Source of the DNA: Bradyrhizobium sp. SRS-191
GTDB lineage: Bacteria; Pseudomonadota; Alphaproteobacteria; Rhizobiales; Xanthobacteraceae
Assembly: GCF_024586915.1 (NCBI RefSeq)
Contig: NZ_JANBVS010000028.1
Span: 1 to 64,000 of the forward strand
Length of the DNA: 64,000 bases
Direction of reading: 5' to 3'
Under the pieces are notes generated by a model. That model worked only from the letters and a program-made list of their open reading frames with translations. It was not told the DNA's origin and did not search any database. A program made the position numbers and the translations under genes. Every line of letters begins with the position of its first letter. Position 1 is the first letter of the stretch. Below, piece by piece: positions 20,370-27,757 of the stretch.

Positions 20370-21845
20370 CTATGGTGACGACGCGACGCGGAAGCCTAAG
20401 GTCTGATGCCGGATGCGGCCGTCGTAGCGATCGCGGCTTCCTGCCCGTGCCTCGGCCGAACCGTTCTTCCACGACCCGGAGCGGATGACGCGCGCGTAGC
20501 TGCCCTCTTCGAGCCAGGCCGAGCCGTCGGCCGGCGCGCCCTTGTAGTTCTTGTGCCAGGAGTCCGCGACCCACTGGCCGACGCCGCCGCCCATGTCGAA
20601 CAGGCCGAACGGATTCGCCGGCGCGCTGCCGATCTTCGGCGGCTGGTCGGAGTCCGCATCGCTGCCGCCGTTGCAGCCTTTGCAGTTGGCCATGCCCGGA
20701 CGCATGCGGTCGCCCCACCAATAGCGGGTGCGCTGGCCGCCGCGCGCGGCATATTCCCACTCGGCCTCCGTCGGCAGCCGGAACGACTTGCCGGTCGCCC
20801 TGGAGAGCCAGGCGAGATAGGCCTGCGTGTCGTCATAGCTCACATTGACGACCGGACGATCATCGGGCCCGGAGGCGATGTCGGGGCAGCTGGCGGCCGC
20901 CACGCACTGCTTCCACTCGCCGACGGTCACGGGATGCTTGCTCAGCGCGAACGGCCGGATGCTGACCTGATGCGCCGGCTGCTCGGAATCGTCGTCACCG
21001 CCCATCGAAAAGCTGCCGCCGGCGATTGCGACCAACTCCGGCACGCGCAGCTTCGGCTCGGGCTCCGGCGCGGCGCGCGGCGGGGCCGCGGGCTCGGCAA
21101 CCGGCGGAGCAACGTCCGTGCTCGCGGTCGGACGCGGAGCGACGAAGCTGCTGGACGGCGGCCGTGAGGCGGGTGACGAATCCGGCGGCGGAGACGCCGT
21201 CTCCAGCGGAATCCGCCGCGGCGACGATGGCGGCGCGCTGGAGAGCGCGTCGCGCTGCGTGCCGGACGAGCCCGTCCATCCAGGCGGCGGCTGAATCAGC
21301 AGCCTGATCTCGCGCAGCGGCAGCAGCACGCCGCCGAGAAAGACGATGCCGAGGACCAGGACGCCGACGGCGGCGCGGATCAGCGTCTTGCGAAATCCTG
21401 CCGATCGGGCGAGCAGCGAGCGCCACCAGCCGGCTCGCGCGGCGTCCTCGTGATCATCGTGGAGGCTGTCCTCCCAGTGCTCCGTGAAGGCGGGCGTGGG
21501 CTCAGGAACCAGTTGCGGACGCGCGGGCGAAACCAGCGGCGGCGGTTCGTGCCCGGCCATTGCATCGGCCTCGCCGGCCTCCCACTCGGGCTCAAGCGAC
21601 TGCTCGAGGGCGCCGCACATCATCAGCAGGAGGCCGCCCTCGCTCTTGCCGGTCCAGCGCTCCTGCACCTCGGGGCACTCGACCTGGTCCTCGACGCTGA
21701 GGAAGCTCGGCGGACGCATTGCGCTGAGCGAGACCTGCACCGTGCGGCCACAACGCCGGCACGCGACCGCGCGGGAATCCGACGGCAGGCTGTCCTCGGC
21801 GAGCCGGGGCGCCCGCAGCCATTGCAACGCTGAAGTCTCGCTCAT
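20370..21845 (-). CDS. Membrane-anchored FGE-sulfatase-like protein lacking catalytic cysteines
   Basis: The protein has 491 residues. A cytoplasmic N-terminus with Cys29-x2-Cys32 and Cys57 (zinc-ribbon-like) is followed by a membrane helix at about 157-176, a Pro/Ser-rich spacer to about 265, and a formylglycine-generating-enzyme-type domain at 268-490 that should lie in the periplasm. The family landmarks are present: GGSFSMGGDDD, HPVTVGEWKQC, RLPTEAEWEYAARGG, NPFGLFDM and GFRVAS. The usual GNVWEW is GGVGQW, and the C-terminal SGSWKNG-to-GFR segment has no Cys, so sulfatase-activating oxidase activity is not expected; a binding or structural role is inferred. The ATG at 21845 follows GAGGA by 5 bases. 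The giant gene ends 32 bases upstream. Confidence 0.8.
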   Translation of the reverse strand: MSETSALQWLRAPRLAEDSLPSDSRAVACRRCGRTVQVSLSAMRPPSFLSVEDQVECPEVQERWTGKSEGGLLLMMCGALEQSLEPEWEAGEADAMAGHEPPPLVSPARPQLVPEPTPAFTEHWEDSLHDDHEDAARAGWWRSLLARSAGFRKTLIRAAVGVLVLGIVFLGGVLLPLREIRLLIQPPPGWTGSSGTQRDALSSAPPSSPRRIPLETASPPPDSSPASRPPSSSFVAPRPTASTDVAPPVAEPAAPPRAAPEPEPKLRVPELVAIAGGSFSMGGDDDSEQPAHQVSIRPFALSKHPVTVGEWKQCVAAASCPDIASGPDDRPVVNVSYDDTQAYLAWLSRATGKSFRLPTEAEWEYAARGGQRTRYWWGDRMRPGMANCKGCNGGSDADSDQPPKIGSAPANPFGLFDMGGGVGQWVADSWHKNYKGAPADGSAWLEEGSYARVIRSGSWKNGSAEARAGSRDRYDGRIRHQTLGFRVASSP

Positions 21846-21877: not shown

Positions 21878-24800
21878 TTACTGACCCCAGTTGGCGAAGG
21901 CGTCCTTGAACACGCGGTCGCCCTCGGTGCCCTTCTCGATCGACAGCAGCGCGCGGTTGCCGCCCTCGTAGACGATCGGGATGTCGAACCACTGCTTGCC
22001 CTTGAGCAGCATGAGATTGCGCTTGGTATCGACCTCGTTGGCGGACAGCGCGACCATGAAGAACTTCGGCGTCACCTTGGCGGTCTGGGTCACCAGCGCC
22101 GTGCCGCGCTCGGCTTCCTCACCCTTCAGGCCGATGCCGCGCAGGCTCGTCAGTCCGGTCACCGCCTGATCCGGCCAGTCGAATTTGAGCTCCATGACGT
22201 GGCTCGCCGGCATCTCCATCTCGGCGTTCCGCCGCAACGAGAGCGTGACCTTGGTGCCGTTCTCGATCTCGATCTCGCCCTTGATCGCGGGCGCCGCATC
22301 GACCCGCGGTCCCTTGCCCTGCTCGACCGACCACGTCACCTTGCCGGGATAGCGCTTGCCTTTCGGATCCTGCGGATCCTCGTAGTAGAGATAGGCCTGC
22401 GCGGGCGTGCTGACCGGCACGCTCATGCCGACGGTGGCATGCTCTTCGGCCGCAGCGGCGACGACCGGCTTGCCGTCCGGCATGATGCGCTCGGCACTGA
22501 CCTTGCGCGCACCCGGCTCGCCGGCGGCGGGCAGCGTCGCAGCCGCGGTCGCATCGCTCAACGGCACCTGCAGCCATTCCGACGCACGCTGCCACGACAC
22601 GGCCGCGCCGACGATCACGAGCAGTCCGGCGGCCGCGACCGCCATCACCCGCCGGCTCGGCAGGCGGCGGCGCGGCGCAGCCGTGGTTTCCGCCGCCTTG
22701 AACGCCACCGCGACGAGCGAGGGATGGATCTTGGTCTCCTCGACCGGTGCAGCGGGCGCCGGCGTCGCGACCACATCGGACTTCGGCGGCTCGGCACTCG
22801 CGGCCGGCAATTCCACCACAACTGCCACGGGCTTCTCTTCGGCCGGGCGCAGCGCGACCGGCGCGGGCGTGTCGACGACGACCCGCGGCGCTTCGCGCAC
22901 GGTGACGGCGTGAAGCTCGGTCTTTTCGGGGCTGACCGGCGGCACCACGGGCGGCAGTGCAGGCGGTGTCGGCGGCGCCACCGCGGGGACGGTAACCTCG
23001 GCGGCAGGCGCCCGTGGCGGACGCCGGCGCAGCACGCGGATCTCGGGCGACGGTTTGGCCGGCGCGCTGGTGTCCGGCCGCTGCGGTACCGCCCTGTCGC
23101 TCACCTTGCCGGCGGGCGCGATGCCGTCGGCGCCGGAGCGGCGCGCCATCGAGAGATATTTCGCGACGGTGGCGATCTCCTCCTCGAGCGAATGCGTCGT
23201 GCTCACCGAGCGCGGCGCCGGCCGTCGCGCCGCTCCGGCCGCAGAGCTCCGTGCCGGCTTCGGCAGTTCGGCGGCTCGCATGTCGGCAGGCTTGGAGATC
23301 TCCGCCATCCGCGGGGCCGGATCGACAGCCGCGGGCCGCGAGCGCAGCTCGATGATGCGATCCGGAAACAGGATCTCGGCGAGATCGCGCAATGACGCAT
23401 CCGGCAACAGCAGCCGTCGCAACGGCGATGGAATGCCCCGCAGCATCTTGGGATCGCTGCGGCCGACGGCGGCAGCGATCCTGCCGGCCGCGGTGAGCAC
23501 GGCGTCGCGACGTTCATCGCTGACCAGCACCTTGCGGGCGCGCAGCATCGCCGTCAGCTCGCGCAGATCGGAGCGCGAGGCATGGTCGACGACCAGGAGA
23601 TCGAAGGTGCCGATCCGAGCCGGCAGCAGTTCGGCGACACGCCGGGCCGGCATGATGTGGCACGGGACGTCCTCAAGCCAGCCATCCAGCGACTTGCGCG
23701 CGGCGAAGCGCAGACGGCGGGCGCTCGGGCCGGAGCAGGCCTGTGCCATCTTCTGCATCGTATCGCTGAACTGCTTCAGCGATTGCCTGACGGCGCCGCT
23801 CGCATTCTGCGCAATGCCGAGCGACATGCGGGCGCTGATCACGGATTCGAACAGCGCCAGCGATCGCTTCTCGAGCCGCAGGCGCTGCGCAGCGAGATCG
23901 TGCAGCAGCTGCCGCTCCTCGGGATTTTCGATCCGCATCAGCACGGCCCAGTTCCAGGCCGTCATCCAATCGGACAATTTCTCTGCGTCCTCGGTCCCCG
24001 GCGTCGCAACCGATCGCAGCCGCTCCGCGAGTTTCGGTGCGCCGGCAGCGACCGTCAGCCGGCACGCCGTCCTGATCAGCTCGTAGTCCGCACCGGCTGC
24101 GCGGATCTCGTCCATGGCCGCGAGAATGCCGGCCCAGCGCGCTTCGAGCTCATGGGCATCAGCCTCGGCATCGCCGACCCGTGACAGCACGTCCGTCTGC
24201 ACGACGGCGGCGAGCTCGCCGGCCCCGGCAAATAGTTCGCCGAGACGCGCCAGCTCGACCAGCGGTCCGGACACGCGCTTCATCACGCTACGGATCGCGG
24301 CGGCGAAGGCGATCGGCCGCTGCATGTCGGCCAGCATCGCGCTGACCTCGGCGTCCTGCATCGACAGCTTGCGGCAGGCGTCGACCACGTTGCGCATGGC
24401 GAGCGCCGCGGTCACCATCGCCGCGTCGACGCTCTTGACGATGCGCTCGAGGTCATCGAAGGCGCGCGCCGATTCCAGTTGCAGCACCGGGGCGTCGATC
24501 TTGGTCGCAATCGAGGTCCATCGCGACCGGAGCGCATGCAACTCATGCCGCCACAGCAGGAAACGCGCGACAACCTGCCAGTCCGTCGGCGCCTGCGGCG
24601 CAATCCCATCCACCGTGATGGCGTCGACGGCAGCTTTCAAGGCGCGGCGCGACGGCGTGAAGCGTGCGAACGGCTTCTCACCGGCCGCGAGCCGCTCGAC
24701 GACACGGATGGCATCGCGCTTGGTGAAGGCCTCGACCGGCGCCTGCACCTGTCGCTTGGCGAACTCTGCGCTGCGCGACAGCTGGAACGAGGCGTCGCGC

Positions 24801-27079
24801 GCCCAGGCCACGACCTTGTCGAGACCGGCAGGCGCGTCGGTCTTGCCGGCTCCGAGCGGCGACAGCTTTGCGAGCCAGTTGTCGTCGGCGATGGCGCGAT
24901 GGCCGGCGGCGAGCGCATCGAGATCGGCTGCGAGGCGATCCGTCGCGTCGAGCCCGAAGGTCGCGATGGCGTCGAGCGCCAGATCCTCGTCGCGGCCGTC
25001 CTCGGACGTCAGCGCAGCCTGCTGCCGCAGCTCCTCGTGCAGACGCAGGAGAGTCGCGGTGTCGGGCAGCGCCGAGGCCTCGGGCAACGCGTCATCGATA
25101 TGCGTGAGGCGATCCCCCAGCCGCAGCCGGGCTTCGCGCGCTCGGTCGACGGCCACGACCACAGGGTCGCCGGCATCGAGCAGACGCTTCGGGCGATCGA
25201 TGAACCACGCGCAGGAGTCCTGCGCGCCGATCAAACCTTCAAACAACTCGAACGGCAGCTCCGGCACCGCGCCGGCAAGCCGCAGATTGCGCCGGACGAC
25301 GTCGGAGATCTCATCGTCGAGCGATGCGATCTGCGTTCGCTTGGAAATGATGTCGCGTTCGAGCCGGCCGATCTGGCCGACATGATCGCGCAGGTTCGGC
25401 GCCTCGACGATGGACTGCAGCCGGCCCGCCAGCGCCTCGGCCTTCCTCAGCACCTCCTTGTCGGTGCCGGTCGAACTGACGGTCAGCTCGCGAATGCCGG
25501 ACGGCAGCTTCTGATGCAGCAGCGACAGCGCAGTCTCGTCTCTCGACACGACCAGCACCCGCGCACCGAGCGCGAGATGATGGCACACCACATTGACGAG
25601 GGCCGCAATGCGATCCTCGCGCGCGCCCGACTGCACGACCAGGCCGTCGGCCCGGGAGAACTCGCGCACGACTTCCGCATCCTCGGCAATTGCCGGCAGC
25701 GGGAAGAACAGATCGCCGTGCTCGACGACCTCAGGCTTCGGCGCAGGCGCAAGATCGATCGGACCGCCGACGATGCCCGAGAGCTGCCGGCGCGCATTGG
25801 CGTGCCCTCGTCCGTCCGGCTGCGCCACCAGCGCGCTGACGGCCGTCGACAGACAGCATTCGGTTTGCGGCGCATGCTCAATCGCCGTCTTGAGGCGATC
25901 GATGTCGCGCAACGCGAGGCTCTCTGGACGGCGCCGCACCGCGATCAGCCAGCGGCCGGTCGCGATCTGGGCTTCGGCGGTCTCCGCAGCTTCCGGTTCG
26001 CGCGACGGCTTGCGGCCGCCTTGCGTGCCGGCCGCGCTCGCGATCTGCTCGAGGCTGATCGGCATGAACGGCGACAGCTCGCCGCGCTCCTCGAGCGCAT
26101 CGATCAGCCGCTCGGACTGGCCGCGCAACGCGAGCGCCGCGTCGGGTGCAACAGCATCGAGCGCCCTGAGATTGACGGTCGCGGCCGCGAAGCGCGGCCG
26201 GACCCGGACCTCGGCATCGGGACGTTCGATGATCTCGATCTCGACCGGGCGCTCGAACAGCGGCAGCTCGCATTCGCGACCGCTTTGTCGCCACGACGAC
26301 AACGCGATGCCCCACATGATCTCCGTCGCCTGGTCGGCGCGCGTCACTGCGGCCATCTCGCGCAGCCGCTGATGAACCACCATGGTGCGGCGGCGCATCC
26401 GTTCGGTCTCGGCCCAGTCGCTCCAGCCGCCGTTGACGTAGCGCTCGATGCGCTGAACGAGATCCGGACGCAGCTCCAGCCGCAGCCGTCCGGTCCAGGC
26501 GCCAAGTGTGCTGGCCGGCGAGAAATCCTCGGGCCGCGCATGGCGGGCGAAGGTCAGGCGGTTCTTCTCGATCTCGTCGACCGTGACCAGGATGCTCTCG
26601 CGCGATGCTGGACGACGCTCCGGATCGGACGACAGCTCGACCCAGATCTCGAGATCGGCGTCGATGGCCGGCGGCTCGGTCGCAGCGAGCGCCTCCACGG
26701 CCAGCCACACGGGACCATCGACATCGAACGTGTTCAGCACGATCCCGGGAAGGCGCTCCAGCTCCTCGCGACCGAGGGCAAGGCCATGATCATCGACGAA
26801 CAGATGATCCGGCTGCCGCTCGGCGAGAGAGCTCTCGGAGCGAATGATCTCGGTCAGACTGCCGAGCACATCGCGCAGCGGCTCGACGGACGCCGCAGTC
26901 CCGCCCCCCTCGCTGGTCTGCGTGCCCCAGGCGTCCGGCGCCGCCTCGGTCTCCGGCGTGACGGACCCGGCAGCCCCGAGAGCGCCAAGCAGCCGCTTGC
27001 CATGATCGGCTGAGACGAGCGACGCGGCGCGATCAGTCGCCTTGCCGTCATTCGGTCGCATGTGCACTGGATGGCTCAT
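21878..27079 (-). CDS. Giant membrane-anchored pseudo-helicase (degenerate superfamily 1)
   Basis: The protein has 1733 residues. Residues about 60-470 resemble the N-terminal region of very large bacterial SF1 helicases (GWSDWAETERMRRR, then IALSSWRQS). Around 483 the strand-loop-helix of motif I is retained (LVVQ and ALGARVLVVS), but the Walker A GPPGTGKS is SGAREDRI (484-491). A helical/coiled region follows (about 560-1120). The Walker B position reads VVDHAS (Asp1165, His1166) where the family has DEAS, and ASLRDLAEILFP (about 1227) matches a later helicase segment, after which the second RecA domain is missing. A Pro-rich linker (1250-1470), one membrane helix (about 1479-1497) and a 235-residue C-terminal domain of unknown fold follow. 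ATP hydrolysis is not expected. The ATG at 27079 follows AGGGGG. Confidence 0.78.
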   Translation of the reverse strand: MSHPVHMRPNDGKATDRAASLVSADHGKRLLGALGAAGSVTPETEAAPDAWGTQTSEGGGTAASVEPLRDVLGSLTEIIRSESSLAERQPDHLFVDDHGLALGREELERLPGIVLNTFDVDGPVWLAVEALAATEPPAIDADLEIWVELSSDPERRPASRESILVTVDEIEKNRLTFARHARPEDFSPASTLGAWTGRLRLELRPDLVQRIERYVNGGWSDWAETERMRRRTMVVHQRLREMAAVTRADQATEIMWGIALSSWRQSGRECELPLFERPVEIEIIERPDAEVRVRPRFAAATVNLRALDAVAPDAALALRGQSERLIDALEERGELSPFMPISLEQIASAAGTQGGRKPSREPEAAETAEAQIATGRWLIAVRRRPESLALRDIDRLKTAIEHAPQTECCLSTAVSALVAQPDGRGHANARRQLSGIVGGPIDLAPAPKPEVVEHGDLFFPLPAIAEDAEVVREFSRADGLVVQSGAREDRIAALVNVVCHHLALGARVLVVSRDETALSLLHQKLPSGIRELTVSSTGTDKEVLRKAEALAGRLQSIVEAPNLRDHVGQIGRLERDIISKRTQIASLDDEISDVVRRNLRLAGAVPELPFELFEGLIGAQDSCAWFIDRPKRLLDAGDPVVVAVDRAREARLRLGDRLTHIDDALPEASALPDTATLLRLHEELRQQAALTSEDGRDEDLALDAIATFGLDATDRLAADLDALAAGHRAIADDNWLAKLSPLGAGKTDAPAGLDKVVAWARDASFQLSRSAEFAKRQVQAPVEAFTKRDAIRVVERLAAGEKPFARFTPSRRALKAAVDAITVDGIAPQAPTDWQVVARFLLWRHELHALRSRWTSIATKIDAPVLQLESARAFDDLERIVKSVDAAMVTAALAMRNVVDACRKLSMQDAEVSAMLADMQRPIAFAAAIRSVMKRVSGPLVELARLGELFAGAGELAAVVQTDVLSRVGDAEADAHELEARWAGILAAMDEIRAAGADYELIRTACRLTVAAGAPKLAERLRSVATPGTEDAEKLSDWMTAWNWAVLMRIENPEERQLLHDLAAQRLRLEKRSLALFESVISARMSLGIAQNASGAVRQSLKQFSDTMQKMAQACSGPSARRLRFAARKSLDGWLEDVPCHIMPARRVAELLPARIGTFDLLVVDHASRSDLRELTAMLRARKVLVSDERRDAVLTAAGRIAAAVGRSDPKMLRGIPSPLRRLLLPDASLRDLAEILFPDRIIELRSRPAAVDPAPRMAEISKPADMRAAELPKPARSSAAGAARRPAPRSVSTTHSLEEEIATVAKYLSMARRSGADGIAPAGKVSDRAVPQRPDTSAPAKPSPEIRVLRRRPPRAPAAEVTVPAVAPPTPPALPPVVPPVSPEKTELHAVTVREAPRVVVDTPAPVALRPAEEKPVAVVVELPAASAEPPKSDVVATPAPAAPVEETKIHPSLVAVAFKAAETTAAPRRRLPSRRVMAVAAAGLLVIVGAAVSWQRASEWLQVPLSDATAAATLPAAGEPGARKVSAERIMPDGKPVVAAAAEEHATVGMSVPVSTPAQAYLYYEDPQDPKGKRYPGKVTWSVEQGKGPRVDAAPAIKGEIEIENGTKVTLSLRRNAEMEMPASHVMELKFDWPDQAVTGLTSLRGIGLKGEEAERGTALVTQTAKVTPKFFMVALSANEVDTKRNLMLLKGKQWFDIPIVYEGGNRALLSIEKGTEGDRVFKDAFANWGQ

Positions 27080-27757
27080 CGTGCCGATCCCCCTCTCAGC
27101 TGCGCTGCAACACCGGCTCGCGCTCGGCGAGAGGCTGACCGACAAGGACGGCCCTGACCGTGATGATCACGGTTCGCCGGGCGATCGGAGCGTGGGTTCA
27201 GTCTGGACAAGCTTGCCTCGCTGCAACGTCGTGGAACTCCCGACTCGTTGCGGAGGCGTATGGCGAAGGTAGGTCACATCAATGACCCGACAGGTAGATG
27301 AATGTGACGATTCTCGATCTTGCAGGGAATTCGGGAAAAACTCCCGGACTACACGCTGATGAAAATGACCTGTAACAAGCGGCTGGTCTTGGGTTTTTGT
27401 TCAGCGCCAGCTTCGATCGGCACGGTCAGCGCGTGCTGCGGGCGAATACGGTAGAACATGTCTAAGAATACTTCTAACACTCAAGAAGAAACATGCGGAC
27501 GTATACCGCGCATCCCGTCTCCACGCCGCCGCAAGGCCCGGGCCCATGTTCGGCCATCGCCATGCCGCGCATAGGGCGGCGCCGTCGACAAGGACGCCAC
27601 AAACTGCCGCCGGGCCCTGCATCGGAGCCGGATGCGGGCCTCCGGCCGGCGCTGCTTGAAACAGCGCAAGAGCTGAAGTAGCTGTTGTTTTCAATGACAA
27701 TAACGCCGCCAGACGGCCCCAGAGCGGTCGGTCCGGCACTGCATGGTTAGGCATCCG
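27080..27757. other. Divergent intergenic region
   Basis: These 678 bases lie between the pseudo-helicase gene and the efflux adaptor gene, which point away from each other. The region must hold both promoters. No gene was supported. It is more AT-rich than its flanks around 27290-27490 and contains a palindromic Irr-box-like sequence. Confidence 0.5.
27462..27478. promoter_or_regulatory. Irr-box (ICE)-like palindrome
   Basis: The bases ctaagaatacttctaac carry AGAA-N3-TTCT half-sites and match 11 of 14 fixed positions of the rhizobial Irr consensus TTTAGAA-N3-TTCTAAA. The site is about 280 bases before the efflux adaptor start and 383 before the pseudo-helicase start. Confidence 0.3.

Follow-up and report, generated by a model that had tools for sequence, protein, structure and literature searches.

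What becomes of a helicase that has lost the site at which it would use ATP, together with its second motor domain, and is anchored in a membrane? The question is raised by P0001, a protein encoded in a stretch of 64,000 nucleotides from Bradyrhizobium sp. SRS-191 (contig NZ_JANBVS010000028.1, positions 1 to 64,000; hereafter the window), in which the first-pass annotation had recognised a superfamily 1 (SF1) helicase turned into a membrane-anchored pseudoenzyme. From sequence comparison we regard it as nearly certain that P0001 represents a pseudo-helicase conserved in its lineage, with a single predicted membrane helix; that it arose, apparently by one fusion, when the N-terminal half of a ProA/Hhe-like SF1 helicase-nuclease, whose nucleotide motifs are lost, was joined to a transmembrane (TM) segment and a beta-rich module of an envelope-type protein family; and that genes for an FGE-fold membrane protein and a DUF4399 protein accompany its gene at all loci seen. 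As to its function, we lean, with moderate confidence, towards an ATP-independent, membrane-tethered docking or receptor subunit in a three-protein complex as the best explanation overall.

Neither a Pfam search nor a PDB sequence search with P0001 returned a match, and the NCBIfam ProA profile (E 0.01, 13.2 bits) and the PADLOC PDC-S37 profile (E 0.1) matched it only marginally. The relation to SF1 helicases exists all the same. BLASTP aligned P0001 with an intact protein of the same genus over 1215 columns at 32% identity (E 1.6e-159, against a small local set of open reading frames (ORFs)), the homology starting at residue 66 and ending at residue 1259, and its paralogue P0002 (contig C61) matches ProA with E 8e-14 (50 bits) and PDC-S37 with E 1.1e-8. 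These two comparisons led us to reject the possibility that the helicase kinship was an error of the annotation. The curated cut-off of the NCBIfam antiphage_ProA equivalog (NF058533) lies at 1500 bits, and is missed by P0001 and P0002 and even by the intact relative L033 (241.9 bits).

A genus-wide search of 265 genomes gave matches in 17 (two candidates were scored per genome, so that further copies can be missed) and 20 full-length proteins of the kind of P0001, here called dead, were found in 11 genomes. Ten are of the A type, including P0001, and ten of the B type, including P0002; nine of the 11 genomes carry both paralogous copies. In P0001 the sequence SGAREDRI indeed stands at residues 484-491 and aligns without a gap with GPPGTGKT of the intact relatives, motif II reads VVDHAS with His1166 in place of the Walker B Glu, and the RecA2 and nuclease blocks of the intact relatives are absent, all as the annotation had stated or, for the nuclease, beyond it. 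Walker A, the Walker B Glu, motif III and RecA2 are missing from all 20 full-length members, which all end in the same C-terminal module. If a broken third copy in genome G113 is included, none of 21 dead members keeps Walker A: its Lys is replaced by Arg in all 21, and the Gly before it by Asp or Glu in 20. The pattern GxxGxGK[ST] is present in the five intact proteins of our alignment and in the four plasmid relatives fetched. No member of the dead family was found with an intact GxxGxGK or a RecA2 domain, and the state of P0001 is therefore not a local lesion. Of the two outcomes that would have refuted the annotation neither was obtained, and its interpretation is largely right.

The losses are unevenly distributed along the helicase-like part. 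We considered residues that are invariant in the five intact proteins, and counted them as kept when they were the same in at least 18 of the 20 dead sequences. By this measure motifs Q, I and III kept none of 19 residues against 85 of 152 at other positions, and the nucleotide site has therefore been eroded selectively (motifs I and III versus the rest, Fisher p 1.1e-5). Motif II kept five of seven residues, with the Walker B Asp retained in 19 of the 20 proteins, motif Ia kept five of five and an Ic-like PCxxMP stretch eight of ten.

The annotation had argued from the intact frame of 5.2 kb to a selected function. The frame is open (the mechanically predicted ORF begins earlier, with a TTG at 27145, and the N-terminus MSHPVH is the same in four A-type orthologues), but an open frame alone is a weak sign of selection because the genome is GC-rich, and the ratio of nonsynonymous to synonymous substitution (dN/dS) is a better one. 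Determined pairwise (NG86) for nine pairs chosen among the 20 genes, of which one B pair has a dS near 0.9, it amounted to 0.135-0.340 for the whole gene, which indicates purifying selection. Taken separately, the RecA1-like part gave 0.055-0.33, the module 0.055-0.28 and the linker 0.27-0.74; our own averages are lowest for the module, followed by the RecA1-like part. Judged by sequence, the dead proteins thus combine helicase homology, lost nucleotide motifs and a frame under purifying selection, the features of a pseudo-helicase. They form one clade in the trees of both the helicase part and the module (SH-aLRT 100 in each), and a single fusion before the duplication is for this reason apparently the simplest reading. 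The helicase tree was built without the fragments and split genes of G140, G193, G190 and G551 and without the plasmid relatives, and the module tree lacks one of the ten caspase-type rows owing to a text filter.

What replaced the second half of the helicase can be followed across the junction, which lies at the RecA1/RecA2 border: nine of the ten B-type proteins read LREH (the tenth LRAH) where the intact proteins read L[RK]EHFRC, after which the sequences diverge. RecA2 and the nuclease were apparently replaced, once, by a linker, a membrane helix and the beta-rich module. The hydropathy profile of P0001 has its sole strong C-terminal segment at residues 1475-1497, with 236 residues beyond it, in agreement with the membrane helix at about 1479 and the domain of about 235 residues in the annotation. 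A weaker hydrophobic segment (491-512) falls inside the RecA1-like part and is read as its core, not as a membrane helix. A C-terminal hydrophobic helix (score >1.6) is found in 19 of the 20 dead proteins, A_G125 falling below this value, and in none of four intact ones; the C-terminal domain is present in all 20.

The C-terminal domain that the annotation had described as extracytoplasmic is present, but it is not unique to the family, and the missing RecA2 is better described as a domain replacement. In both A and B types the segment from the TM helix to the end matches, with 33-43% identity, the C-terminal part of a membrane protein of ca. 540 amino acids whose gene adjoins purA (a scan of one locus identified the neighbour as Pfam Adenylsucc_synt, and five more loci show the same ORF start). 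This purA-adjacent protein (L035:3871-5493) and its relatives have no Pfam match, and in three proteins that were scanned the module is not covered by any Pfam family above its cut-off. Of 249 genomes sampled across the order, 157 contain the module. To look for it beyond the order a class sample of 106 genomes was used, in which two genomes matched, both belonging to the order and one of them the window's own. It also occurs in a short, probably exported protein and at the end of caspase-fold proteins (L039:4237-5715 on contig C81 of the window's own genome, and L138-L147), three of which were scanned and contain Peptidase_C14. Caspases are recognised by catalytic Cys and His motifs; DAFR and GYG take their places in ten of ten members checked, including two rows missed by the first pattern in which GYG was read by eye, and these proteins are, by their sequences, a conserved pseudo-caspase family. 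In G022 a TIR domain is fused to the same TM helix and module (L041:5918-7351). The gene lies directly downstream of the purA-linked copy, with which it is nested in the module tree, and looks like a recent local fusion.

The annotation has to be amended in a further point, as P0001 belongs to a three-gene cassette (Table 1). The same next two genes, encoding an FGE-fold membrane protein and a DUF4399 protein, are found in 20 of 20 dead loci, and the cassette is found in none of four intact loci. Spacings of 32 and 9 bases in the window are typical of an operon. Alongside the cassette, all ten A copies have an AcrB-type gene and a BBP2 porin gene and all ten B copies a secretin (GspD-like) gene and a porin-like gene, neighbours that occur in none of the four intact loci. 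The FGE-sulfatase fold of the second gene is well supported (PF03781, E 3.7e-52). In active FGE a catalytic Cys pair lies near the C-terminus; the corresponding segment of the partners, RSG[SA]W...G[FL]R, is devoid of Cys in 21 of 21 sequences. All 21 FGE partners, that of the third cassette among them, have a predicted TM helix, and 19 of 20 DUF4399 partners have a hydrophobic segment at the N-terminus. Among 397 genomes of the order, the window's own was the only one in which the CxxCG domain of the FGE partner was detected with confidence; one further, weak match was to a sequence with stops. No MoxR or vWA gene was present among ten proteins scanned (eight from the window, two from L006). 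The third cassette copy of G113 (L158:2255-9113), whose helicase-like gene is split across two frames, came to light through the module search and not through the genus-wide helicase search. A link to photosynthesis was also considered and rejected: reaction-centre genes occur in ten of the 11 cassette genomes, yet 17 further genomes of the genus, in none of which the search found a dead member, have them as well (27 of 265 in total), and the restriction is therefore read as phylogenetic.

Table 1. Features of the cassette in the window (all on the reverse strand).
Feature	Position	Strand	Remarks
A-type membrane pseudo-helicase P0001	21878..27079	(-)	1733 aa; ATG at 27079, start common to four A-type orthologues
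Part homologous to the N-terminal half (N-region, RecA1, helical insert) of intact SF1 helicase-nucleases	23303..26884	(-)	residues 66-1259
Walker A remnant SGAREDRI	25607..25630	(-)	residues 484-491; Arg490 at catalytic Lys position, Asp489 at preceding Gly
Motif II remnant, Glu to His1166	23567..23602	(-)	residues 1160-1171
Pro/Ala-rich linker with conserved LEEEIATVAKYLSMAR stretch	22658..23341	(-)	residues ~1247-1474
Predicted transmembrane helix	22589..22657	(-)	residues 1475-1497; hydropathy
Beta-rich module (predicted periplasmic)	21881..22411	(-)	residues 1557-1733; common to purA-linked protein, pseudo-caspase and TIR proteins
Cassette gene 2: CxxCG...C...C domain (predicted cytosolic), TM, Pro-rich stretch, FGE-sulfatase-fold domain	20370..21845	(-)	
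Cassette gene 3: DUF4399 protein with N-terminal hydrophobic (signal-like) segment	19746..20360	(-)	

Among the intact relatives, four full-length genes in the genus (G008, G015, G120 and G232) encode GPPGTGKTHT, DEASQ, GDD[KR]Q, motif V/VI-like blocks and a nuclease stretch, and the two proteins scanned with Pfam (L033 and L034) contain MTES_1575, AAA_11 and AAA_12. Both score under the NCBIfam cut-offs and are therefore relatives, not certified members, of ProA or Hhe. Two more relatives with intact Walker A came from a class sample of 385 genomes, in G525 and G551, the latter split over two frames. The distribution of the intact type is patchy, as its RecA2-nuclease profile matches eight of 265 genomes of the genus, two of them remotely and two through broken or split genes. 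Broken or split genes of this type were observed at L090 (G140), L091 (G193) and L157 (G551), which might be expected of a defence gene with a fast turnover. A tail resembling the C-terminal part of GreA/GreB follows the nuclease domain in L033 (residues 1561-1628, E 5.5e-6) and L034 (1581-1643, E 0.0012), both below the Pfam cut-off.

Homology, motif loss, selection and the cassette are observed in the sequences; a mechanism built on them would add a topology, a complex, a ligand and signalling. The cytosolic pseudo-helicase would use no ATP, and Arg and Asp or Glu at the positions of the Walker A Lys and Gly would shut the former phosphate pocket and hold RecA1 in a single conformation. The protein would offer a fixed surface for docking or reception of a ligand, which may still be nucleic acid; such binding is left possible because motif Ia, a strand-contact motif of helicases, is kept while motifs Q, I and III are eroded. 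The linker and TM helix would connect the dead helicase to the periplasmic module, which would act with the FGE-fold domain and the DUF4399 protein on the periplasmic face. That the three cassette proteins form an inner-membrane complex, with the dead helicase as its docking or receptor surface, is a tentative step to which we give slightly less than even weight.

Several points weigh against this reading. Binding, complex formation and topology are steps that we infer, and motif Ia could have been retained for folding needs alone. The linker evolves fast (dN/dS up to 0.74), which makes tight mechanical coupling doubtful. The models, of single chains from six-row alignments, are poor for the helicase part (pLDDT 51) and modest for the module (pLDDT 57), and for neither did Foldseek give a PDB match under 1e-3. 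Both trees are quick ones with long-branch warnings, and in the helicase tree the A and B subtrees disagree on G060, which is deepest in the former and nested in the latter, so that strictly vertical descent of both copies cannot be taken for granted. Finally, no dead member was found in 254 of the 265 genomes of the genus, and its function must therefore be dispensable to the genus.

An ordinary envelope scaffold, in which the helicase fold is a large inert cytosolic body and the periplasmic parts work in envelope assembly or stress, is rather unlikely, although of the alternatives it survives best. The wide occurrence of the module in the order, the exported or membrane-bound appearance of both partner proteins and the fixed neighbourhoods are all in line with it. 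However, some 1200 helicase-like residues are under purifying selection in the pairs tested, with motif Ia and PCxxMP largely kept, whereas an inert spacer would drift.

Marginally less probable is a decoy in a conflict system, where the dead helicase and its dead partner enzymes would capture phage factors directed against genuine anti-phage helicases or would block an invader at the membrane. The intact relatives do match defence models, L033 scoring E 5.8e-71 with PDC-S37, 2.2e-41 with Hhe and 1.1e-71 with ProA. Of the four plasmid relatives, one adjoins BREX genes and another restriction and AbiE genes. The same module ends both a TIR protein and the caspase-fold proteins without catalytic Cys and His, and the portion of PMC7159879 drawn upon here describes enzymes and caspases without activity, as well as FGS domains, as effectors that neutralise or serve as decoys. 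Against this, no intact counterpart was found in ten of the 11 cassette genomes, which weakens the case for a decoy of an enzyme of the same cell, the cassette occupies two fixed chromosomal neighbourhoods, and the phage records gave no match. An origin of the whole protein from phages, plasmids or viruses was likewise rejected: the phage records gave no match, nor did the viral contigs when scanned with two short peptide patterns, and none of the 36 plasmid records with a match covered more than 80% of the query.

A bolder form of the docking or receptor reading, which we think improbable at present, is a new class of transmembrane receptor, in which the ATP-dead helicase half would recognise nucleic acid at the cytosolic face of the inner membrane and signal through that membrane to a periplasmic FGE/DUF4399 complex. 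A residual nucleotide-binding ATPase with an unorthodox active site is very unlikely: the Walker B Asp is widely kept, but the Walker A Lys and Gly, the Walker B Glu, motif III and RecA2 are all lost. A decaying pseudogene or local lesion has a negligible chance for the A and B types in view of 20 open frames in 11 genomes and low dN/dS in nine pairs, even though the split third-copy gene of G113 demonstrates that decay occurs in the family.

In this family a helicase lineage of the defence type has given up both the ATP site and the second motor domain, has acquired a membrane anchor and the beta-rich module, and has been duplicated and kept in a three-gene cassette; were it a sensor, a motor of the anti-phage kind would have been turned into a membrane sensor. 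The five intact and 20 dead aligned proteins form a before-and-after series of what survives when a motor becomes a scaffold, and the module, which also ends dead caspase-fold and TIR proteins, may mark an uncharacterised envelope signalling family. In the open-licence PMC literature we recognised nothing about this family or about the ProA anti-phage protein, nor any report of a pseudo-helicase that is membrane-anchored, with or without fusion to a periplasmic domain. Among the closest systems are the inactive-enzyme effectors of the MoxR-vWA ternary conflict systems, for which the portion of PMC7159879 (eLife 2020) drawn upon describes dead enzymes, inactive caspases, FGS (FGE-fold) domains and membrane-associated forms; it describes no dead helicase, and the cassette genes differ in occupying two fixed neighbourhoods. 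FGE domains have been proposed as invasion sensors (excerpt of PMC10907252), and in an excerpt of PMC10250203 a DUF4011 gene serves only as a flank marker.

With the ProA (NF058533), Hhe and PDC-S37 helicase-nucleases the dead family shares the N-region, RecA1 and helical insert over ca. 1200 residues of the intact relatives, but it has lost the ATP motifs, RecA2 and the MTES_1575-type nuclease, has gained a TM helix and a beta-rich module, and scores far below the cut-offs. With the purA-linked membrane protein of the Hyphomicrobiales, which starts with MADYYPLI, it shares the TM helix and module; that protein has a short N-terminal region where the dead family has its helicase-like part of ca. 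1200 residues. RecC and AddB are inactivated SF1 helicase folds that recognise Chi as soluble subunits of active helicase-nuclease complexes. Like the dead family they have an SF1 fold whose ATP site is lost, and they keep a binding or regulatory role. Dead SF1 helicases as such are therefore already known, and the claim of a new kind of pseudoenzyme stands only for the architecture: unlike RecC and AddB, the dead family has a membrane anchor, a single RecA domain and no active helicase gene in its cassette.
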